DNA of 15,999 nt, taken from positions 1-15,999 of the forward strand of contig JANWYC010000006.1 of the NCBI GenBank assembly GCA_025057245.1. Reading direction: 5' to 3'. The position numbers and the translations under genes are program-made. This document shows positions 2,396 to 14,336 of this stretch, one piece after another (position 1 is the first letter of the stretch; every line of letters starts with the position of its first letter). Below the pieces are notes generated by a model. It ran no database searches. It saw only the letters and a program-made list of their open reading frames with translations, and was not told the origin of the DNA. This stretch comes from Aquificaceae bacterium. GTDB taxonomy: Bacteria > Aquificota > Aquificia > Aquificales > Aquificaceae.

Positions 2396-2891
2396 CTTTC
2401 TTCAGACGCCCCTTTGCGTATTCCATCAGACCACCCGCTTTAAGTATTTCCATAAGAGTTTCAGGAAACTTGGTAGCATGATATTCTTTGCCCTTCGTTA
2501 AGTTCCTTACAACTCCTTTTTCTAAATCCACTTCCACCTCGTCGCCGTGGTCTGTCTCCTCCACCGCCTGTGGAGCTTCAACTATGGGAAGTCCTATGTT
2601 TATGGCGTTTCTGAAAAATATTCTGGCAAAGGAAGCGGATATAACCACTGGCACGCCTGCGTATTTTATGGCTATGGGAGCGTGTTCCCTTGAAGAGCCT
2701 GAACCAAAGTTCCTACCAGCGAGAATTATGTCTCCCTGCTGGTGCTGTTTTGCAAACTCTGGATGTTCCGAGTCTTCCATTACATGTTGGGCAAGCTCGT
2801 AGGGGTCTGAAGTGTTGAGATACCTTGCTGGTATAATCTGGTCTGTATCCACATTATCACCGAACTTCCACACTCTGCCTCTAATAATCAT
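2382..2891 (-). CDS. leuD: 3-isopropylmalate dehydratase small subunit (LeuD/HacB-type, short form)
   Basis: A 169-residue swivel-domain subunit of the aconitase superfamily, matching the short LeuD form of archaea and thermophiles. Landmarks are GDNVDTDQIIPARYLN (12-27), GRNFGSGSSREHAP (59-72) and FFRNAINIGLPI. With a large LeuC subunit carrying the 4Fe-4S cluster it isomerises 2- to 3-isopropylmalate in leucine synthesis. No leuC is present here, so the enzyme must be assembled from a distant gene. The substrate-loop sequence YLNT is close to the YLRT I recall for archaeal homoaconitase-type subunits, so a related 2-oxoacid role is not excluded. It heads the operon with the CBS and SLC13 genes. 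A TATAAT lies 8 nt upstream of the ATG and no Shine-Dalgarno is evident, which supports this start. Confidence 0.9.
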   Translation of the reverse strand: MIIRGRVWKFGDNVDTDQIIPARYLNTSDPYELAQHVMEDSEHPEFAKQHQQGDIILAGRNFGSGSSREHAPIAIKYAGVPVVISASFARIFFRNAINIGLPIVEAPQAVEETDHGDEVEVDLEKGVVRNLTKGKEYHATKFPETLMEILKAGGLMEYAKGRLKKDGWA

Positions 2892-2899
2892 GGTAAGAA

Positions 2900-2905
2900 A
2901 TTATA
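2900..2905 (-). promoter_or_regulatory. -10 box of leuD, predicted leaderless transcript
   Basis: On the minus strand TATAAT (6/6 consensus) ends 8 nt before the leuD ATG (spacer TTTCTTACC including the A before it is AT-rich and lacks a ribosome-binding site). Transcription would begin at or within a few bases of the start codon. No good -35 was found. Confidence 0.6.
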
Positions 2906-3101
2906 TTACAGAACGCTTTGGGTGAGATACATGCTCAGTTTTTTGAGGTTTAATTAAGCACGCTAATATCCACAATTAGCCTTTGAACTCTAAAACTAAG
3001 AAAACTCCTGCTCATTAGGAGCGAATTTTTATATTGTTATATAGTTGAACTCAAATTCCAAAGTGGCTGAATATCCAGCCTTACAGAGCTTTTAGGTGAG
3101 G

Positions 3102-3137
3102 CATTTCTAAACTCTTTTAGAAAAGTGTTGAAAAATG
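3102..3137. repeat. 36-bp imperfect palindrome upstream of terC
   Basis: Arms of 17 bp (CATTTCTAAACTCTTTT and AAAAGTGTTGAAAAATG) flank a 2-bp centre, with 14 of 17 positions complementary. It lies about 87 bp upstream of the terC -10 box. It could be an operator, an RNA hairpin or chance structure in AT-rich DNA; no run of T follows that would make a standard terminator. Confidence 0.55.
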
Positions 3138-3223
3138 GAACATTCTTAGACCCATCAGACGATTGGTTTTTAGAGTGGAGCTATACCGTCACAACTTTTC
3201 ATACAACTTGCTTTTTTGTGGAC

Positions 3224-3229
3224 TATAAT
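3224..3229 (+). promoter_or_regulatory. -10 box of terC, predicted leaderless transcript
   Basis: TATAAT (6/6) ends 8 nt before the terC ATG at 3238, and the intervening AAGAACGT holds no Shine-Dalgarno. This leaves no room for a 5' leader, so a manganese riboswitch (yybP-ykoY type), common before terC-family genes elsewhere, is not expected in the transcript from this promoter. Confidence 0.6.
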
Positions 3230-3237
3230 AAGAACGT

Positions 3238-4143
3238 ATGGAACTAAACTGGGTTATATTTGGAGTAGTAGTATTCATTGCACTTTTCCTTGACCTTTTT
3301 GTCTTTCATAGAAATCCTCATAAGATATCTCTAAAGGAAGCTCTCCTGCTTTCCGCTTTTTGGATAGCTGTAGGTGTTGCCTTCGGGGCTTACGTATACT
3401 ACACAAAGGGCTACGATAGAGGAGTAGAATACATGACCGGTTACCTCCTTGAGAAGGCTCTTAGTCTTGATAACATATTTGTGTTTATCTTGATTTTTTC
3501 CTACTTTAAAGTTCCAGAAGAGTTCAGGCATAAAGTGCTTTTTTGGGGCGTGTTTGGGGCTATTTTTTTCAGGGCTATTTTTATCTTTGCGGGCTTAGAG
3601 CTTATAAAACACTTTCACTGGATTGTATATGTGTTTGGTATAATCCTTATAGTATCCGCTATTAAGCTCTTGACTACGGAAGAAAAAGAATTCCATCCAG
3701 AGAAAACTCTGGTTTATAGAATAGCAAAAACCTTTATACCACTCAGACCAAACTACATTGACGGTAAGTTTTTTATAAAAGAAGGTGGAAAGTTATTTGC
3801 CACACCCATGTTCCTCGCTCTTATGTTCGTTGAAAGTTCTGATATTATGTTTGCCATAGACTCCGTGCCTGCCATTCTTGCCATATCCAACGACCCTTTC
3901 GTAGTTTACACTTCTAACATATTTGCCATACTTGGGTTAAGGTCTCTGTATTTTGCGGCTGCTGGCATTTTACCTTTGTTCCATCTTCTTCACTACGGAT
4001 TATCCTTCATACTCGGCTTTATAGGCGTGAAAATGCTCATTTCCGACTTTTACAAGATACCGGTGGAAGTTTCCCTTCTCCTTATTGGAAGCGCCATTTT
4101 CATCTCAACAATAGCATCTCTGATAATAAAGAAAAAAACTTAA
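3238..4143 (+). CDS. TerC-family integral membrane protein (Alx/TerC-like)
   Basis: A 301-residue protein with about 8-9 membrane segments, usual for the TerC/Alx family. The family signatures are present: YLLEKALSLDNIFVFILIF (about residues 68-86), with the acidic EKALSLDN helix, and SSDIMFAIDSVPAILAIS (about 200-217), with paired aspartates, followed by NIFAILGLRSLYF. These conserved acidic residues lie in the membrane and are thought to carry metal ions. Characterised relatives export Mn2+ (Alx, MntP-like role) or give tellurite resistance. It stands alone between the divergent leuD operon and transposon debris. A cytosolic loop around 140-180 separates the two halves. Metal specificity is inferred from the family, not shown. 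Confidence 0.92.
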   Translation: MELNWVIFGVVVFIALFLDLFVFHRNPHKISLKEALLLSAFWIAVGVAFGAYVYYTKGYDRGVEYMTGYLLEKALSLDNIFVFILIFSYFKVPEEFRHKVLFWGVFGAIFFRAIFIFAGLELIKHFHWIVYVFGIILIVSAIKLLTTEEKEFHPEKTLVYRIAKTFIPLRPNYIDGKFFIKEGGKLFATPMFLALMFVESSDIMFAIDSVPAILAISNDPFVVYTSNIFAILGLRSLYFAAAGILPLFHLLHYGLSFILGFIGVKMLISDFYKIPVEVSLLLIGSAIFISTIASLIIKKKT

Positions 4144-4149
4144 CATACG

Positions 4150-4300
4150 GGGTTAGAAATTAGGGAATTATAATGCTTTGTCCAAAAATGCCATCTGACA
4201 TCTGACATTTTAGTCACTCTCAAATTTGAGCCCGATTTTATAAAAGCTCTTGAAAATCTTACGAGTCAGAGAAGAAAGCTTATCAGACAATTAGATATTA
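4150..4300 (+). repeat. Dispersed repeat copy A (transposase-derived)
   Basis: This begins GGGGTTAGAAATTAG and about 70 bp later encodes KFEPDFIKALENLTSQRRKL followed by IRQLDI in one frame. The same two blocks, a (G)GGTKAGAAATT motif and an (E)FEPD(F/Y) reading frame, occur at 11462-11532 (copy C) and 12676-12813 (copy B), in the same orientation. The copies are diverged and contain indels, so this is an old family. A short tandem CATCTGA repeat sits at about 4192-4207. Confidence 0.7.
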
Positions 4301-4571
4301 GACGTAGCAGAAGTGAGAATAATCATAAACAGAACTGTATCACTCTACGGACCTACAAGGCTCGTGGTGGAAGACTTGAAATACTCTCTCTCAAAAGGTT
4401 GATAATCAACTTTCTGAAGGCGTTAAAGAGAGTATTTATAAGTTGGGGGTTAGAGAGATAAAAAACAAGCTAAAAGAACTTCAGGAAGAGTATGACGTAG
4501 AGGTGATTTGCTTCAATCCAGCGTATACTTCTCAGGCTTTTAGTGAATGTGGCTAAGTGGATGTCGTAAAC

Positions 4572-4865
4572 TTCCTGTAAGCCAAAGCGGAGATGCTTAT
4601 TAGACAATTGCGTATTATAGTATAATACATAATGCATTGCAAAAAAGGGTAAATACATTAAGAAGGAATACAGAAGTTGGTATTGTATGTAGTTAAGAGA
4701 GCTCTGTGAGATTTGGTAAGCATGTGGATAGCCCAAGACAGGTTTTTAGAGAGGTGTATGAGAGTGCTGTGAGTTGTTTGGGTTCATATAGGTCCTCTCG
4801 TGAGAGTTTTGGAAACATCCTTGAGCTTTCTGCATGAAGTTCTGTTTTATACTATAGACAAAGCA
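4572..4865 (+). other. Sequence interrupting the tnpB zinc finger
   Basis: About 290 bp separate the two halves of one zinc finger. It includes a near-copy of 4278-4292 (GCTTATTAGACAATT at 4595-4609, 14 of 15 identical), a perfect 17-nt palindrome, and an open fragment at 4639-4837 that reads GKYIKKEYRSWYCM, then after stops and a shift DSPRQVFREVYESAVSCLGS and YRSSRESFGNILEL. This resembles the N-terminal helical part of a transposase or TnpB. A likely reading is that the remnants of two tandem, internally deleted element copies abut here, rather than a clean insertion; no flanking target duplication was seen. Confidence 0.55.
4612..4628. repeat. Perfect 17-nt palindrome
   Basis: GTATTATA-G-TATAATAC: two perfect 8-nt arms around a single G. 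It contains TATAAT and reads as a -10-like box on both strands. It sits inside the decayed element region and may be a former element end, a promoter relic or chance. Confidence 0.5.
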
Positions 4866-5107
4866 AATAACAAGTAGAAGTGAGTTTGAATGTCCACTCT
4901 GTGGCAAAAACTTCACGCTGACTTGAATGCATCCAGAAACATGCTTAGCCGTGTCAAGTGAAGGATGCGTTTATACGGCTTAAGGCAAGAGCCCTTGCTA
5001 TTCAGGTTAGAGGGTTTTCAGAGAGCCCTGAGTAATGAGCGGAATGAACGCTTACGGGGTAAGACATTGAACTCACTCACAGGTTTACCTGCCACAGTCC
5101 CTAAACA

Positions 5108-5135
5108 TTAGACATGGAATAAATTCCCATGCTAA
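5108..5135. repeat. Bulged hairpin after the tnpB remnant (possible element right end)
   Basis: TTAG-A-CATGGAAT / AA / ATTCCCATG-CTAA forms a 12-pair stem with a 2-nt loop and two single-base bulges. It lies about 70 bp after the tnpB remnant stop and 46 bp from the sulP stop. IS200/IS605 elements carry imperfect subterminal hairpins at their right ends, and the tnpB guide RNA 3' end maps there, so this is a plausible fossil right end. No T run follows on either strand, so a standard terminator is less likely. Confidence 0.5.
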
Positions 5136-5180
5136 GGAATACTCTCTTGAATGTGCTAAACACGGCTATATTTAGGAATT

Positions 5181-7244
5181 TTACTCCTTTCCAACCATTT
5201 TCAGAAGATTCTTGGTTATCTCCTCGGTGCTACTGCCCGCATACACAAAGCCGTTTTTCATACTACAATCCTTCTTGCCACACAGGCTACCCAGAGATAC
5301 CGTCTCTTCTTTTACCTTAAGAAGTAGGCTGGATGGTAGGAATAGGGATTGTCCGTCAGTGTAGAAGTCGTTAGCCTTTATGGAGAGCTCTACACCATCC
5401 GCTTTAAGAGTTAAACTACGATAGGCTTTTCCTAAGTATACTTCCACATCCTCACGAGAAGAGAGGCGTTCGTATATGTCTTTTATTGGACCTTCTGCTG
5501 GTTCAAACTTTACATAATCCTTTACGGTGTAGCATTCGTTAAACAAGGCGTAGGGGCAAGTTCTTGCACAGTAAGAGTGGTCTATGCTTTTGAAAAGCTC
5601 ACCTAAGGCGTAGCCCTTAGATGGAAGTATGTTTTCCTTACCGAGCTTGTCTAAAAAGCCAGAGCGTCTCATAACATCTTCCACAGGTCCTTTGACGTTG
5701 ACGAATACCAGATTTATACCCCTCTTCCTGGTGTTCTCAAGAAAGTCGTTCAGGGCATCAAGTGCGGTTCCATCCATGTAGTTAACGGATTCACAGTCTA
5801 TTACCAGATGTTTAAGAGCGGGTTTTTGCTCCGCAATATCTCCGATTTCTTCCAGTATGTTGTCAGTATTGGCGTAGTAAAAGGATGCCTCTGGTCTTAC
5901 CATCTCTATTTGCGGACAGGTGGGGAGGTTGCTACTCTCTGCGTTCACAAAGGTCTTGCTTACTGGGTCTCTGGACATTCTCACTATCCTAGGATAAAGA
6001 CTTCTCCACAGGAAAAGGGACAAGGAGAGGAACATGCCTATAAAAATGGCGTAGTCTGGTTTCATGATAAAGGATAGGGCAAAGGTGGTTATGGCGGATA
6101 TGCCGTCGTATCGGTTTGTCTTCCAAAGGTGGCGGAAGTATTCTGGTTTTACCAAACTAACTACTGCGGTAATAACCACCGCAGAGAGAACCGCCCTTGG
6201 AAGGTAGTAAAGAAGGGGTGCTACAAAGAACACAGTAGCCAGAACAAAGCTGGCGCTTACGATGTTTGCCATGCCAGTTTTTGCACCAGACTGGAAGTTT
6301 ACCGCAGAGCGGGAGAAAGAACCACTGACTGGAAAGCTTTTAAAGAAAGAACCTATAAGGTTTGCAAGACCTTGACCTATAAGCTCTTGATTTACATCTA
6401 TCTTTTGCTTGGTTTGACTGGATATAAACTTGGCTATGGCGTAGGCTTCCATAAAACCCACCATGGCAACTATAAAAGCCTTGCCTACCATGGTGTCAAG
6501 CAGTTCAAGGTCTATCGAAGGTAAGGAAGGAAAGGGTAAGCCTTGAGGTATGTTTCCTACAACCCTTATGCCAAGACTTTCAAGGGAGAAGAAGTAAGAC
6601 AAAGCGGTAAACAGCACTACCACCACCAAGGCGGACGGAAAGTTTTTGTTTATCTTCCTGAGACCTACTATAAGTGCTATGGATGTCAAACCCACTAAGA
6701 GTGTGTATACATTAGTCTTTGGTATGTTTATGATTATTTCGTATATGTTCTGAAATATGAGCTCCTTCTGTTCTATCTTTATGCCTAAGATGGCTGGCAC
6801 TTGAGTAGTCATTATGATGATAGCCGCTGCGTTGGTAAAGCCCACTATGACTGAGTGGGAGACAAAGTTCACCAAAAAACCCAGTCTGAAAACACCAAGA
6901 GTGAGTTGGATTATACCCACTATAAAAGCCATGAGAATGGCAAGTTCTATAAACTTCTCTTCACCCGGCTTTGCGAAGGAGGAGATAGACACAAAGGTAA
7001 GGAAGGCTACTATGGCTACAGGACCAGTGGCAAGCTGGGCGGAGCTCCCAAAAAGAGCGGCTATAATGACTGGTATGGAAGCGGCGTAGAGACCGTATAC
7101 GGGCGGTAAGCCGGCTATGAGTGCATATGCCATGGACTGGGGAACAAGCACCACCGCTACAGTAAGACCAGCTATAAGGTCAGAGCTAAAAGTGTTCTTG
7201 TCGTAGCCTTTAAACCATTTGAGAAAGGGCAGGAACTTTTCCAT
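5181..7244 (-). CDS. SulP/SLC26-family anion transporter with STAS domain and Cys-bearing C-terminal extension
   Basis: A 687-residue inner-membrane protein. The transporter core (about residues 10-400) has the SulP signature LTVAVVLVPQSMAYALIAGLP and the second conserved block GSFFKSFPVSGSFSRSAVN. A STAS domain follows (about 440-550), with LVIDCESVNYMDGTALDAL. SulP proteins move sulfate, bicarbonate or other anions; in an autotroph either sulfate or bicarbonate uptake would fit. About 130 residues beyond STAS is unusual and contains C559, C563 and C571 (CARTCPYALFNEC) plus C655 and C660 (CGKKDC), which could bind zinc or respond to redox. I chose the ATG at 7244: the core begins just after it, an upstream in-frame ATG at 7334 would overlap the divergent amidase gene, and a TAGTAT box ends 8 nt before 7244. 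Substrate unknown. Confidence 0.9.
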   Translation of the reverse strand: MEKFLPFLKWFKGYDKNTFSSDLIAGLTVAVVLVPQSMAYALIAGLPPVYGLYAASIPVIIAALFGSSAQLATGPVAIVAFLTFVSISSFAKPGEEKFIELAILMAFIVGIIQLTLGVFRLGFLVNFVSHSVIVGFTNAAAIIIMTTQVPAILGIKIEQKELIFQNIYEIIINIPKTNVYTLLVGLTSIALIVGLRKINKNFPSALVVVVLFTALSYFFSLESLGIRVVGNIPQGLPFPSLPSIDLELLDTMVGKAFIVAMVGFMEAYAIAKFISSQTKQKIDVNQELIGQGLANLIGSFFKSFPVSGSFSRSAVNFQSGAKTGMANIVSASFVLATVFFVAPLLYYLPRAVLSAVVITAVVSLVKPEYFRHLWKTNRYDGISAITTFALSFIMKPDYAIFIGMFLSLSLFLWRSLYPRIVRMSRDPVSKTFVNAESSNLPTCPQIEMVRPEASFYYANTDNILEEIGDIAEQKPALKHLVIDCESVNYMDGTALDALNDFLENTRKRGINLVFVNVKGPVEDVMRRSGFLDKLGKENILPSKGYALGELFKSIDHSYCARTCPYALFNECYTVKDYVKFEPAEGPIKDIYERLSSREDVEVYLGKAYRSLTLKADGVELSIKANDFYTDGQSLFLPSSLLLKVKEETVSLGSLCGKKDCSMKNGFVYAGSSTEEITKNLLKMVGKE

Positions 7245-7294
7245 GGAATAAAATACTACCACAAAAAATACCCTTAAGTCCTTCAGAATTAACT

Positions 7295-7300
7295 TATAAT
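7295..7300 (+). promoter_or_regulatory. -10 box of the amidase-pyrG unit, predicted leaderless
   Basis: TATAAT (6/6) ends 7 nt before the GTG start at 7308, with no Shine-Dalgarno in between. The 63-bp divergent gap to sulP must hold both promoters. Confidence 0.55.
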
Positions 7301-7307
7301 CTTGTAA

Positions 7308-10747
<3,440 letters not shown>

Positions 10748-10751
<4 letters not shown>

Positions 10752-11428
10752 AGACTTAATTTATAACCAAACCCTCTCACCGTTTGCACCGCCTTTCCTT
10801 CTTCTCCCAACTTTTCTCTGAGCTTTTTTATGTGAACGTCCACAGTTCTGTCATAAACGTCCCTCTTAAGCACGCTATCTATAAGATACTCCCTGCTTAC
10901 TGGCTTTCCGTGGTTCTCTAAAAGGGCGGATAGGATGCGAAACTCTGTGGGCGTAAGGTCTATAAGCTCCCCACCTCTCCTAACCTCCTTCTTGTCAAGG
11001 TCTATCTCAAGACTTCCAAGTTTAAAAATGGTGTTTTTCTTCTCCTTTCCCGCTCTACGCAAGACAGCCTTTACCCTCGCTATTAATTCCTTAATGGAGA
11101 AAGGCTTCGTTATGTAGTCATCCGCACCAAGAGAGAAACCCTTTAGCTTATCCCTTTCCATATCTCTGGCGGTTATGAAGATAATGGGTAGGTCTTTCAG
11201 CGTAGGGTTGTTCCTCACATACTGGGCTATTTTAAAGCCGTCATAGTCAGGAAGCATTACATCAAGAAGTAATAGGTCAGGTGTGTGAGACTCTAAGGTC
11301 TCTATGGCTTCTTTCCCTCTTAACCTTACTACAGGCTCATAACCTTCTTTCCTAAGGTTATAGGCTATAAGCTCCGCAAGGTCCCTATCGTCCTCCACCA
11401 CAAGCACGTTTTCACTTTTTTTAACCAT
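10748..11428 (-). CDS. OmpR/PhoB-family response regulator
   Basis: A 226-residue two-domain regulator. The receiver domain (1-120) carries the acidic pair Asp13/Asp14, the phosphoacceptor Asp56 (LLLLDVMLPDYDG), the Thr of IFITARD and the Lys of YITKPF. The C-terminal winged-helix DNA-binding domain (about 130-226) has LTPTEFRILSALLENHGKPV and ends TVRGFGYKLSL. The sequence is close to the PhoB/PhoP subgroup, but the regulon cannot be read from it. No kinase gene is adjacent; the soluble histidine kinase at 14323-15309 is a candidate partner. It heads the unit with the metallophosphoesterase. Unlike its neighbours it has no -10 box 7-8 nt from the ATG; TATATT/TATTAT lie 15-17 nt upstream. Confidence 0.93.
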
Positions 11429-11461
11429 GGCTTTACTTACTTAATAATATAGCAACACGCC

Positions 11462-11532
11462 GGGTGAGAAATTGGAAAATCACAAATTATGGTGCTCCAC
11501 ACTCAACCGCTTCAGAATTTGAACCTGACTAT
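11462..11532 (+). repeat. Dispersed repeat copy C
   Basis: This carries GGGTGAGAAATTGG at 11462-11475 and, about 50 bp on, TTCAGAATTTGAACCTGACT, which reads SEFEPDY. Both blocks match copy B at 12676 closely (GGTGAGAAATTG is identical) and copy A at 4150 less well. It fills most of the 126-bp gap between the gph-like gene and the response regulator. Confidence 0.7.
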
Positions 11533-11554
11533 GCAGAAACCTGATAAAAAACTT

Positions 11555-12181
11555 CTAAACCAGCTTTTTTAAATCCAAAGGGCTTTCAAGTATGAAGTCT
11601 GGCTTTTCCTCCTTTACCCTTACGTAGCCCCACATAGCTAAGCCTCTGTTTACACCAGCCAGCCTTCCCGCCTTCAGGTCCGTATCCGTATCACCTATCA
11701 TAATAGCCTCTTCTGGAGAAACCCTCACAGACTTCATAACTTCCAACAAAGGCAGCGGCGACGGTTTTTTCTCAGGATAGGTATCGCCGCCCACAAGACA
11801 ACAAAAGTAGTCCGTAAGACCAAGCTTCTCTAATATAAAGCTGGAGAGGCTTTCCATTTTGTTAGTTACCACCGCAAGCTTTATGCCCCTATCTTTTAGA
11901 TATTTCAATGCTTCCTCCACACCCTCAAAAGGTTTTGTATAGCAAACCGGCTCAGCCATGTAGTGTTCTCTAAAAACTTCAAGAGCCTCTTCAAGGAGCT
12001 CATCTGAGAAAAACCTGCTAAGGAGTTCCCTTGCTCCACCTCCTACCATATGTTTTACATCCTCTATATCTACTTGCTGTCTTCCGAATTGTCTAAGTGT
12101 TTTGTTTAAGTGTATACCAATGTCTTTGTAAGAGTCTATCAACGTTCCATCAAGGTCAAAAAGAACCGCTTTTAAATACAT
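11555..12181 (-). CDS. gph: HAD-family phosphatase, phosphoglycolate phosphatase-like
   Basis: A 208-residue haloacid-dehalogenase hydrolase with an alpha-helical cap (about 15-85). The four HAD motifs are visible: nucleophile Asp9 and Asp11 (VLFDLDGT), Thr106 (AVVTNK), Lys139 (KKPSPLPL) and Asp164/Asp168 (MIGDTDTDLKAG). The KPSPxPL segment and overall length match the Gph/PGP group that dephosphorylates 2-phosphoglycolate, a by-product of DNA repair or of Rubisco oxygenation; other small phosphate monoesters or pyrophosphate are possible. Its ATG lies within the end of the thioredoxin-like gene (10-bp overlap), so they form one unit. The pair is flanked by direct repeats. Family sure, substrate inferred. 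Confidence 0.85.
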   Translation of the reverse strand: MYLKAVLFDLDGTLIDSYKDIGIHLNKTLRQFGRQQVDIEDVKHMVGGGARELLSRFFSDELLEEALEVFREHYMAEPVCYTKPFEGVEEALKYLKDRGIKLAVVTNKMESLSSFILEKLGLTDYFCCLVGGDTYPEKKPSPLPLLEVMKSVRVSPEEAIMIGDTDTDLKAGRLAGVNRGLAMWGYVRVKEEKPDFILESPLDLKKLV

Positions 12182-12642
12182 TTTGTTTTCATGTAATCCA
12201 TGTATTTTTCTTCTTTATACATCTCTTCTTTGACAAACCTTATGCTACAGGCAAGGTTTTTCGGTGGCTGATATCCGGGTAAGTGTAGTAAGATTTTACC
12301 CTCCTTGTTGTAGAAAAAAACCTGAGGAAAAGAGTTTACCTTTAGATACCTTGCCAGCTCTTCCTCCGTGCTTATAGTCTCTTTACCTTTCAATATATGC
12401 CTGACCTTTGCATTACTCTCATAAAGTATGCTTTGAACATCCATACCCTGAAGCTCTCTTGCTATCTCTTCTTTCTGAAGGTCTCTTCTAAGCTGTTTAC
12501 AGTATATACAACTTTCACTTTCCACTATTAGCATTGCATAATCGTTTTTTGGTATTAGACTCTTTGTTTCAATCTGAGACGTATCCTTTTTCTGACAGGA
12601 TAAAAGACTTAAAACACCTAATGCCAGAAGCCACTTCCTCAT
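12172..12642 (-). CDS. Thioredoxin-like lipoprotein (SoxW/DsbD-gamma-like fold)
   Basis: A 156-residue protein with a lipoprotein signal peptide: a basic start, hydrophobic stretch and lipobox LLSC with Cys16, so the mature protein should be anchored outside the cytoplasmic membrane. The mature part is a thioredoxin fold with the redox pair CIYC (Cys45, Cys48) and the conserved cis-Pro at 106 (NSFPQVFFY), followed by KEGKILLHLPGY. Such proteins (for example SoxW and thioredoxin_2 families) reduce disulfides or handle thiols in the periplasm. Two more cysteines occur, Cys132 and Cys155. Co-transcription with a cytosolic HAD phosphatase is not explained by function. A TAAAAT box ends 8 nt before the ATG. 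Confidence 0.85.
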   Translation of the reverse strand: MRKWLLALGVLSLLSCQKKDTSQIETKSLIPKNDYAMLIVESESCIYCKQLRRDLQKEEIARELQGMDVQSILYESNAKVRHILKGKETISTEEELARYLKVNSFPQVFFYNKEGKILLHLPGYQPPKNLACSIRFVKEEMYKEEKYMDYMKTKCI

Positions 12643-12650
12643 GAGTAATA

Positions 12651-12656
12651 ATTTTA
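12651..12656 (-). promoter_or_regulatory. -10 box of the thioredoxin-like/gph unit
   Basis: On the minus strand TAAAAT (5/6) ends 8 nt before the ATG at 12642; the spacer TATTACTC has no ribosome-binding site. Same geometry as at leuD, terC and purK. Confidence 0.5.
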
Positions 12657-12675
12657 ACCAGAATACAGTAAGTCA

Positions 12676-12860
12676 GGTGAGAAATTGTTTCGTCTAAAAA
12701 ATAATTTCTGATGTCTCACGCTTGGCAACTTCAGAATTTGAGCCTGATTATATAAGAGTTCGTAAAACTCTTGTGAATCAAAGACGAGAGATTTATTAAA
12801 CAGTTGGATATTAACACTACACAGACCGCACGAAGATTTGGATGTAAAGTCTTAGAGAAT
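12676..12860 (+). repeat. Dispersed repeat copy B (transposase-derived, with internal hairpin)
   Basis: This starts GGTGAGAAATTG and contains an imperfect hairpin (GTGAG at 12677 and AGAAATT at 12680 against AATTTCT at 12703 and CTCAC at 12715). It then encodes SEFEPDYIRVRKTLVNQRRE, and after a frameshift DINTTQTARRFGCKV, which looks like a transposase helix-turn-helix (compare the FEPDF...QRRKLIRQLDI of copy A). The nucleotide alignment with copy A over 4264-4300 needs one indel. Non-coding now. It fills most of the 243-bp gap between two gene starts/ends. Confidence 0.65.
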
Positions 12861-12885
12861 GTTTTTTTGAACACCGCAGAAACTA

Positions 12886-13185
12886 CTAAGCTTTTAACCT
12901 GAAGCCCTTCTTAAGCGCCTCCTCTACCCACCCAAAGCAGATGTTGTGGTTTTCCTCAAGTCTTTTCCTCAGTCTGTTTAAAAAATCCCTTAACTCTTCA
13001 AGCTCCTCCGCACTCATGGTTGGTATGTCTTTTAACAGCTCTTCCAGCCCCTCTCTCAGTGGTTCTACGTTGAAGGGGTCTGTGGATAGCTTCTCAAGAT
13101 TTTTGAGCCTCTCTTTCAGATTTTGCATGTCTTTTATTATAGATTGCATTTGCTTTTTTCGGGAATAATCCTTGAAGCTTGACAT
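12886..13185 (-). CDS. Small coiled-coil protein of unknown function
   Basis: A 99-residue, highly charged, mostly alpha-helical protein that I do not recognise. Residues 10-40 (KQMQSIIKDMQNLKERLKNL) and 58-80 (SAEELEELRDFLNRLRKRLE) look like two coiled-coil or paired helices. A short C-terminal segment (CFGWVEEALKKGF) is more hydrophobic and has the only cysteine. No signal peptide or membrane segment. It is read divergently from purK and abuts repeat copy B downstream. The minus-strand composition matches real genes here (Arg AGA/AGG, low serine) and the opposite frame is serine-rich shadow, so it is probably a genuine gene. Its start has a weaker TAAAGT box 6 nt upstream. Confidence 0.7.
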   Translation of the reverse strand: MSSFKDYSRKKQMQSIIKDMQNLKERLKNLEKLSTDPFNVEPLREGLEELLKDIPTMSAEELEELRDFLNRLRKRLEENHNICFGWVEEALKKGFRLKA

Positions 13186-13239
13186 TCAAACACTTTAGAC
13201 ACCGCATAAATGACTATGAGGATGGGAACTACAAAGCTT

Positions 13240-13245
13240 TATAAT
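13240..13245 (+). promoter_or_regulatory. -10 box of purK, predicted leaderless
   Basis: TATAAT (6/6) ends 8 nt before the purK ATG at 13254, spacer TTTAATCT, without a Shine-Dalgarno. No convincing -35 was seen 17 bp upstream. Confidence 0.6.
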
Positions 13246-13253
13246 TTTAATCT

Positions 13254-14336
13254 ATGCGCGTAGGTATATTGGGTGGTGGACAGCTGGGCTGGATGACGGT
13301 GATGGAAGGTAAAAGAATGGGTTTTAAGTTTTCCGTTCTTGACCATGACCCAGAATCACCAGCCAGTAAGGTAGCAGACCGCTGGTTTCCACCAGAGAGG
13401 GTAGAAGACTTTATAAAAGCATCAGAAGTCATAACTTACGAGTTTGAACATATACCTCAGGAAGTTTTGGAAAAGGTTTACGACCTTACCATTCCCTCCG
13501 TTAACCTATTGGAGCTAAAAAGGAGTAGAATAAGGGAGAAAGAATTTTACAGAAAGGAAGGTTATCCCACACCAGATTTTATTATATCCAGCGGAGACAG
13601 ACTAAGCGAAGATATTAAGACCTTTGGGTTTCCTTGCGTGGTAAAGGCTGAAAAGCTAGGCTACGACGGGAAAGGTCAATATAGAGTTTTTTACTCTGAA
13701 GACGTAGACTACATCTTAAAAAACCACCACTCTGAAGAGAAGTTCTTGGTAGAAAGGCTTGTGGACTTTAACTTTGAATTTTCCCTCATAGGCGTTAGAG
13801 ACTCAAGAGGTAACAGGAAGATATATCCTCTCACCGTAAATTATCACGAAGGAGGCATACTTCTTTACAATTCCACCAGAGCTCTTCAGATAAAAGAAGC
13901 GGAGGAAATTCTGTTGTCTCTTATGGAAAATCTTAACTTAGTGGGTCTCATTGCGGTGGAGTTTTTCTACACATGGGATGGTAAAGTGCTTATAAACGAA
14001 ATGGCACCCAGACCTCATAACACTGGGCACTATAGCTTGGATGGATGCTACACTTCTCAGTTTGAAAACCTTCTTAGGGCTGTATGCGGATTGCCTCTCG
14101 GTTCCACAAGACTAAAAGCACCCTCTGGCATGGTTAACATCCTCGGTTTGTCTCTTGAGGATATAAGCTTACAAGAGCTCCTCTCTGTAGATGGGTCAAA
14201 GCTTTACTGGTATGGTAAAAGTAAAAAGCCAAGGAGGAAGATGGGGCATATAAACATTACAGCTACAACAGAGCAGGAGCTGGAAGAGAAGATTGAAAGA
14301 CTTCTCAACCTTATATACTCTCATGAGCCTTCTTAA
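13254..14336 (+). CDS. purK: N5-carboxyaminoimidazole ribonucleotide synthase
   Basis: A 360-residue ATP-grasp enzyme of purine synthesis. It has the N-terminal nucleotide-fold start (RVGILGGGQLGWMTVMEGKR), the preATP-grasp block TYEFEHIPQEVLEKV, the ATP-grasp lysine and glycine loop (VVKAEKLGYDGKGQY) and the C-terminal metal-site block NEMAPRPHNTGHYSLDGC. With ATP and bicarbonate it converts AIR to N5-CAIR; PurE then rearranges it. No purE is present in this window, so the usual purEK pairing is broken. The start is supported by the conserved N-terminus and by a TATAAT just upstream. The last 14 bp overlap the ATG of the histidine kinase gene, so the two are co-transcribed. Confidence 0.95.
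   Translation: MRVGILGGGQLGWMTVMEGKRMGFKFSVLDHDPESPASKVADRWFPPERVEDFIKASEVITYEFEHIPQEVLEKVYDLTIPSVNLLELKRSRIREKEFYRKEGYPTPDFIISSGDRLSEDIKTFGFPCVVKAEKLGYDGKGQYRVFYSEDVDYILKNHHSEEKFLVERLVDFNFEFSLIGVRDSRGNRKIYPLTVNYHEGGILLYNSTRALQIKEAEEILLSLMENLNLVGLIAVEFFYTWDGKVLINEMAPRPHNTGHYSLDGCYTSQFENLLRAVCGLPLGSTRLKAPSGMVNILGLSLEDISLQELLSVDGSKLYWYGKSKKPRRKMGHINITATTEQELEEKIERLLNLIYSHEPS

Follow-up and report, generated by a model that had tools for sequence, protein, structure and literature searches.

Leaderless genes have already been predicted for the Aquificae, and the case described here is a further example in that phylum. In its passages on the phylum, the survey of Zheng et al. 2011 (PMC3160421) gives leaderless genes for two of five Aquificae genomes, at 20.7 and 32.4%, recognized by a TAtaaT signal whose first T lies about 12 bp upstream of the start, with Aquifex aeolicus VF5 as the illustration. 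Lechner et al. 2014 (PMC4227106) reported both Shine-Dalgarno (SD) and Pribnow motifs in Aquificales, in a main text that holds no words beginning with 'leader' or 'UTR' (untranslated region). In Deinococcus radiodurans, a TANNNT motif adjoins almost a third of the open reading frames and is required for transcription; the reporter tests described for this −10 motif show that it functions without a −35 element and that a ribosome-binding site cannot replace it (Zhong et al. 2025, PMC12340547). The term TANNNT is also used for Mycobacterium tuberculosis, where extensive leaderless transcripts were mapped by RNA-seq (PMC3898074). Here we examine −10-like boxes that lie directly before start codons in contig JANWYC010000006.1 of a heat-loving Aquificaceae bacterium (assembly GCA_025057245.1), whose full 15,999 nucleotides (nt) are called the window. 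A first-pass annotation had proposed that boxes at a fixed, start-proximal distance, as in Deinococcus and Thermus, mark leaderless transcription at most unit heads and that the lineage uses leaderless initiation widely. Our analysis indicates that extended −10 promoters very probably give rise to leaderless or nearly leaderless mRNAs, with leaders of 0–3 nt, at about half of the divergent unit heads.

The Aquificaceae boxes and the TA-led genes of Zheng et al. share phylum and signal. The earlier work is a prediction from upstream signals, and the passages on Aquificae considered here hold no orthologue, initiator or within-order comparison; added here are an uncultured genome, conservation at the level of orthologues, a start-base signature and the absence of enrichment in one sister-family genome. 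The figure of two genomes in five already hints at a split between families. Apart from the use of the box as an annotation marker and the contrast between families, the finding agrees with the existing prediction. Deinococcus-Thermus is a different phylum, and the Aquificaceae boxes come nearer to a complete TATAAT and occur at any of 6–9 nt. The comparison drawn in the first-pass annotation holds as an analogy of working, not as kinship: the pyrG relatives closest to the window are Aquificaceae metagenome genomes, with identity up to 84%, followed by Hydrogenobacter and Thermocrinis at 73–74%, so that the window's boxes resemble the Deinococcus-Thermus −10-motif set in working and do not belong to it. 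To our knowledge, no experiment on such boxes has been done in Aquificota. Among the matches listed from the open-licence PubMed Central literature, there was neither 5′-end mapping of Aquificaceae mRNAs nor an orthologue-level contrast with a sister family. M. tuberculosis belongs to yet another phylum, and its leaderless mRNAs were mapped experimentally.

The window is an entire contig (C232) of a draft genome of 265 contigs and 1.31 Mb. Together with 40 further contigs it forms the own-genome sample (G000; 41 of 265 contigs, 256,251 bp, about 20% of the genome). Comparison samples were taken from the same genus (G005), from other genera of the same family (G014, G023), from a sister family, f3 (G036), and from a mixture of other phyla. 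Families f1, f2 and f3 belong to one order, and f1 is taken as Aquificaceae from the labels of its closest relatives. Genes were called by a codon-usage model blind to upstream sequence, TANNNT was then counted before the called starts, and the null model consisted of 200 dinucleotide shuffles of those upstream stretches. A box is called near-consensus when it matches TATAAT in at least 5 places. Genes at contig edges or with less than 60 nt upstream were left out (own 60/226, G005 24/399, G014 11/194). The main counts are based on G000, G005 and G014, and the set of named loci repeats pyrG neighbourhoods.

At a distance of 6–9 nt, TANNNT precedes 23 of the 36 own divergent heads, where the shuffles give 5.1 on average and 12 at most; near-consensus boxes precede 16 of them (1.2 expected, shuffle maximum 5). 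The same is seen in G005 (50/88 for TANNNT, 15.7 expected, maximum 29) and in G014 (27/46, 6.9 expected, maximum 13). Enrichment over shuffled upstream regions was the check set in advance, and in these samples of three same-family genomes it leaves the claim unrefuted. In G023 the near-consensus boxes are likewise enriched (11/22 versus 2.3, maximum 7). When a box at either the called or an alternative in-frame start is accepted, near-consensus boxes are found at 19/36 own, 41/88 G005 and 22/46 G014 divergent heads, and at 5/62 in G036. It is next to inconceivable that a reader simply selected chance matches in a sequence of 43% GC. TANNNT alone is indeed frequent, a 4-nt window holding it at about 10% of own divergent heads (3.5/36), but in all three samples the observed count is higher than in every one of the 200 shuffles, and the boxes are conserved in 86 of 100 orthologue rows.

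The enrichment depends on the order of the letters and on position. Of the 20 hexamers that three A and three T can form, TATAAT is the commonest, with 39 occurrences at 6–9 nt before the 303 heads of G000, G005 and G014, followed by the overlapping ATAATT with 22 and TTATAA with 11. Internal in-frame ATGs of the own sample are preceded by TANNNT in 74 of 1299 cases. Chance combined with AT-richness was considered as a cause and is excluded by the shuffles, the hexamer permutations and the internal ATGs. Before the 81 own heads, matches at 6, 7, 8 and 9 nt number 13, 11, 13 and 5, and the other distances from 0 to 35 hold 1–6 each; 9 nt is not above background in the own heads and is above it in G014 (8) and the named loci (11). 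The description of the distance as fixed was therefore too strong: the spacing varies between genes and between orthologues. The extent also needs narrowing, from most unit heads to about half of the divergent ones, with a lower share behind an upstream gene of the same strand; for same-strand genes at least 50 nt apart, near-consensus boxes number 13/45 own, 13/63 in G005 and 4/25 in G014.

Outside the family the picture differs by sample. G036 shows no enrichment (6/62 versus 11.8 expected), nor do the mixed other phyla (7/102 versus 12.0; 41/373 versus 41.5 for both kinds of head). An f2 sample of only 80 kb has TANNNT at 12 of 40 heads versus 4.3 expected (maximum 10) and near-consensus boxes at 4 of 40 versus 0.9 (maximum 4). 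The control counts, in Thermus and D. deserti plasmid stretches (7/47 heads, background 1.5, and 8/41, background 1.8) and in E. coli (2/43, background 2.3), agree with expectation and are too small for a firm comparison of spacing; of the 8 D. deserti matches at 6–9 nt, 7 lie at 6–7, too few for such a comparison.

Boxed heads are nearly devoid of SD sites. Words of at least 5 bases occur at 0/25 own, 0/43 G005 and 1/24 G014 boxed heads, compared with 13/56, 36/108 and 19/47 unboxed heads. SD use is retained elsewhere, words of at least 4 bases preceding 55 of 85 own operon genes, and the anti-SD is intact in two 16S genes of the same genus; a 16S search of the window's own draft genome gave no match.

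The boxes are best explained as the −10 elements of housekeeping (sigma-A type) promoters, ending 6–9 nt ahead of the start codon. Because RNA polymerase usually initiates about 7–9 nt past such a box, transcription would begin at the first base of that codon or 1–3 nt before it. The mRNA would then carry no leader and no SD site, and the ribosome would recognise the 5′-terminal start codon directly, by a 70S or IF2-assisted leaderless route. Upstream of the boxes a TRTGn extension is modestly enriched, and a −35 element is nearly absent. At least three of the four TRTG letters are matched at 38 of 144 boxed genes and at 12 of 52 heads with a distant box; for boxes inside genes the figure is 130 of 1622. 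A −35 element was sought at spacers of 5–35 before 223 boxed genes and is hardly visible: at least 4 matches were found in 21 genes at spacer 17, a slight rise over the 3–20 at other spacers. The motif, its spacing, its enrichment and conservation, the scarcity of SD sites and the start-base signature are direct observations.

The boxes could instead be decoys, with the true promoters further upstream giving ordinary leaders and the AT-rich motif keeping the start region unstructured. Bacterial start regions are often AT-rich, and a second promoter is possible at some of the boxed genes. This explanation is nevertheless highly improbable, given that the enrichment is specific to the TATAAT order and to its position and is absent in G036 and in other phyla, that SD sites are rare at boxed heads, and that the TRTGn extension is enriched there.

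The bases in front of the start codon carry a further signature. A pyrimidine stands at −1 in 80 of 92 boxed heads versus 168 of 325 unboxed operon genes (P=2e-10), 95 of 146 unboxed heads (P=2e-4) and 36 of 52 heads with a distant box only (P=0.015), in tests that ignore gene relatedness and possible start-calling errors. Where the box lies at 9 nt, pyrimidines occupy −1 in 19 of 21 heads and −2 in 18 of 21, and −2 is never A; in 34 genes with a box at 9 nt, a broader collection that takes in operon-placed ones, the pyrimidine fractions are 0.85 at −1 and 0.79 at −2. An ATG start is found at 89/92 boxed heads versus 289/325 unboxed operon genes (P=0.024), to which start-calling errors may contribute. 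Since polymerases favour starting at a purine that follows a pyrimidine, 7–9 nt past the box, the bias at −1 and −2 agrees with transcription from the A of ATG. Together with the conservation in orthologues and the rarity of SD sites where a box is present, this signature points to transcripts without a leader or with one of 0–3 nt, in support of the proposed wide use of leaderless initiation. Promoter activity, transcript ends and leaderless translation are predictions drawn from the letters of the genomes.

A related explanation is that at most genes the box directs initiation to a site 1–3 nt ahead of the start codon, giving very short leaders (1–5 nt). A spacing of 8 nt places the canonical start, position 7, at −2; a purine occupies that position in pyrG and terC, for a predicted leader of 2 nt, and the amidase orthologues spaced at 10 nt are expected to carry one of 2–3 nt. 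The pyrimidine bias at −1, and at −2 behind a 9-nt box, is what starting on the A of ATG predicts, and in sulP, the thioredoxin-like gene (trx) and purK that A is the sole purine 6–10 nt past the box. We regard very short leaders at most genes as possible but rather unlikely. The purines of pyrG and terC and the 10-nt amidase spacing also weigh against our preferred reading of leaderless or nearly leaderless mRNAs, as do several other observations. The response regulator gene (start 11428) has no TANNNT 5–10 nt ahead. TANNNT in G023 is less clear (12/22 versus 5.7, maximum 13), and enrichment is weaker where the upstream gene lies on the same strand (own 13/45, background 5.8). Operon-placed genes, too, have near-consensus boxes (own 6/85, G005 31/224, G014 15/112; backgrounds 1.8, 7.5 and 2.0), and their TANNNT counts are above background (own 12/85 versus 6.5, G005 40/224 versus 22.8, G014 25/112 versus 10.0). 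With 4-base words the exclusion of SD sites from boxed heads is less clean (own 0/25, G005 6/43, G014 3/24), TRTG scores of at least 3 reach up to 21/144 at other offsets, and the limits of the −1 tests apply. The sister-family contrast described below comprises one sampled f3 genome (G036) and 13 orthologue rows, four of them purK rows with doubtful starts. Because of the second possible start at pyrG and terC, the amidase spacing, the boxless response regulator and the boxed operon genes, strict leaderlessness may apply to only part of the genes; leaders of 1–3 nt would explain the rest. The boxes of operon-placed genes may be internal promoters such as that of pyrG.

Among the operon-placed genes of G005 (L132–L151), 15 of the 31 boxed ones also carry a 4-base SD-like word; these are possible internal promoters.

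Conservation was followed in orthologue rows of six window genes, with starts placed by alignment to the window protein. A near-consensus box at 6–10 nt is present in 86 of 100 same-family rows, the window included: leuD 15/15, purK 16/20, terC 11/14, amidase 12/14, pyrG 19/22 and thioredoxin-like 13/15. A 4-base SD-like word is also present in 23 of the 100, several of them upstream of the box or touching it. In the window the amidase box is 7 nt from a GTG; 8 of 13 same-family orthologues have it 10 nt from an ATG. For sulP, TANNNT stands at 8–9 nt in 9 of the 12 rows with a start (window included), as TAGTAT in 6 of the 9. Starts are doubtful in the four f3 purK rows, the G015 amidase and leuD rows and the G023 pyrG row; the leuD row of G003 is mostly masked upstream, and the sulP row of G010 has no start. 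Loci that are fragments or paralogues were left out (purK L126–L131, leuD L249–L251, amidase L289–L291, trx L337–L347, sulP L377–L383, coiled-coil L397).

In f3 the box is found in 1 of 13 rows and an SD-like word of at least 4 bases in 11 of 13; in f2, 3 of 16 rows have a box at 6–10 nt. The leuD rows are the sharpest, with a start-abutting box in 0/4 and an SD word in 4/4 f3 rows; f2 takes a middle place, with a leuD box at 8 nt in 3/4 rows and the pyrG box shifted to 15 nt in 7/7. We lean, by a narrow measure, towards a two-part proposal: that homologous genes would have switched their mode of initiation at a family boundary within one order, most clearly leuD, and that the start-site register of Aquificaceae would be kept by pyrimidines between box and AUG, which would leave the A of AUG as the only usable start at many genes. 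Such a contrast between families of one order would provide pairs of homologous genes in which one member has a leader and the other does not, a direct setting in which the causes of gain and loss of leaderless initiation may be studied.

In the window itself, the six strong boxes (leuD, terC, amidase, pyrG, thioredoxin-like and purK) are letter-exact at the coordinates and spacings first reported for them, and no SD lies in the 7–8 nt between box and start (Table 1). The names leuD, terC, sulP, amidase, pyrG, thioredoxin-like and purK are backed by Pfam, with an Aconitase_C domain in leuD, a TerC domain in terC and CN_hydrolase in the amidase; the coiled-coil protein has no Pfam match. Both weaker boxes read as they were described, TAGTAT before sulP and TAAAGT before the coiled-coil gene; the coiled-coil start assumed for the latter, 13185, is probably wrong. 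In 10 of 12 coiled-coil orthologue rows (window excluded), the gene starts 19–20 codons later, with TATAAT or TAAAAT 7–8 nt upstream, and the start codon is GTG in 7 of those 10. The window has the same layout, with an ATG at 13126–13128 behind a TATAAT. The coiled-coil open reading frame (12886–13185) has thus probably been over-extended by 19 codons, the conserved start being 13128. With this correction a near-consensus box precedes 7 of the 8 window genes, the sulP box being weak. The gene illustrates how the −10 box can be used as a marker for start-codon annotation in Aquificaceae.

Table 1. Boxes and related features in the window (positions in nt; CDS, coding sequence).
Feature	Motif	Position	Strand	Relation to start	CDS	Remark
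leuD box	TATAAT	2900..2905	minus	8 nt before start 2891	2382-2891	
terC box	TATAAT	3224..3229	plus	8 nt before CDS	3238-4143	
sulP weak box	TAGTAT	7253..7258	minus	8 nt before ATG 7244	5181-7244	TGG preceding (extended −10 form)
amidase (CN_hydrolase) box	TATAAT	7295..7300	plus	7 nt before GTG	7308-8045	
pyrG box	TAAAAT	8043..8048	plus	8 nt before CDS	8057-9634	overlaps amidase stop codon
response regulator gene		10748..11428	minus			counter-example; 126 nt gap, no TANNNT at 5-10 nt
thioredoxin-like (trx) box	TAAAAT	12651..12656	minus	8 nt before CDS	12172-12642	
coiled-coil box	TATAAT	13136..13141	minus	7 nt before corrected start 13128	12886-13128	
coiled-coil box of the first-pass annotation	TAAAGT	13192..13197	minus	6 nt before longer start 13185		probably not promoter box
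purK box	TATAAT	13240..13245	plus	8 nt before CDS	13254-14336	

The pyrG gene starts 11 nt past the amidase stop, so that the window alone does not show it as a unit head. A near-consensus box at 8–9 nt is present in 27 of 32 same-family pyrG rows. A recognisable amidase lies next upstream in 9 of these 27 and none was found in the other 18, of which 6 had no upstream gene called. That the box is a mere reflection of the amidase stop codon was considered and is ruled out by the orthologues with other upstream neighbours. Of the 23 named pyrG loci, 19 are not of the f2 type and 17 of these have the near box, with Hydrogenobacter, Thermocrinis and Aquifex aeolicus among their labels; in the remaining 4 the box lies at 15 nt, the f2 position. 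L011, with a match beginning at a contig end, was excluded, and at least some named loci share their upstream sequence with G genomes (e.g. L002 and G001) and are therefore not independent.

Two Aquificaceae-labelled pyrG loci, L013 and L016, are without the near box, one having none and the other TACAAT at 12 nt; the box can thus be lost or moved. In f2 (7 of 7 genomes; L312, L314–L319), 15 nt separate the pyrG TAAAAT box from the start; after the box come five or six C, next GTT or GTA, and lastly ATGGG. The same C-run layout stands upstream of pyrG in the four named loci L022–L025. The C-run would fall in the first transcribed bases of this gene, which encodes CTP synthase, and could pair with the G-run at the AUG, which suggests CTP-responsive initiation (CTP, cytidine triphosphate) or start-site switching. 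In Aquificaceae pyrG, AC often precedes the ATG instead.

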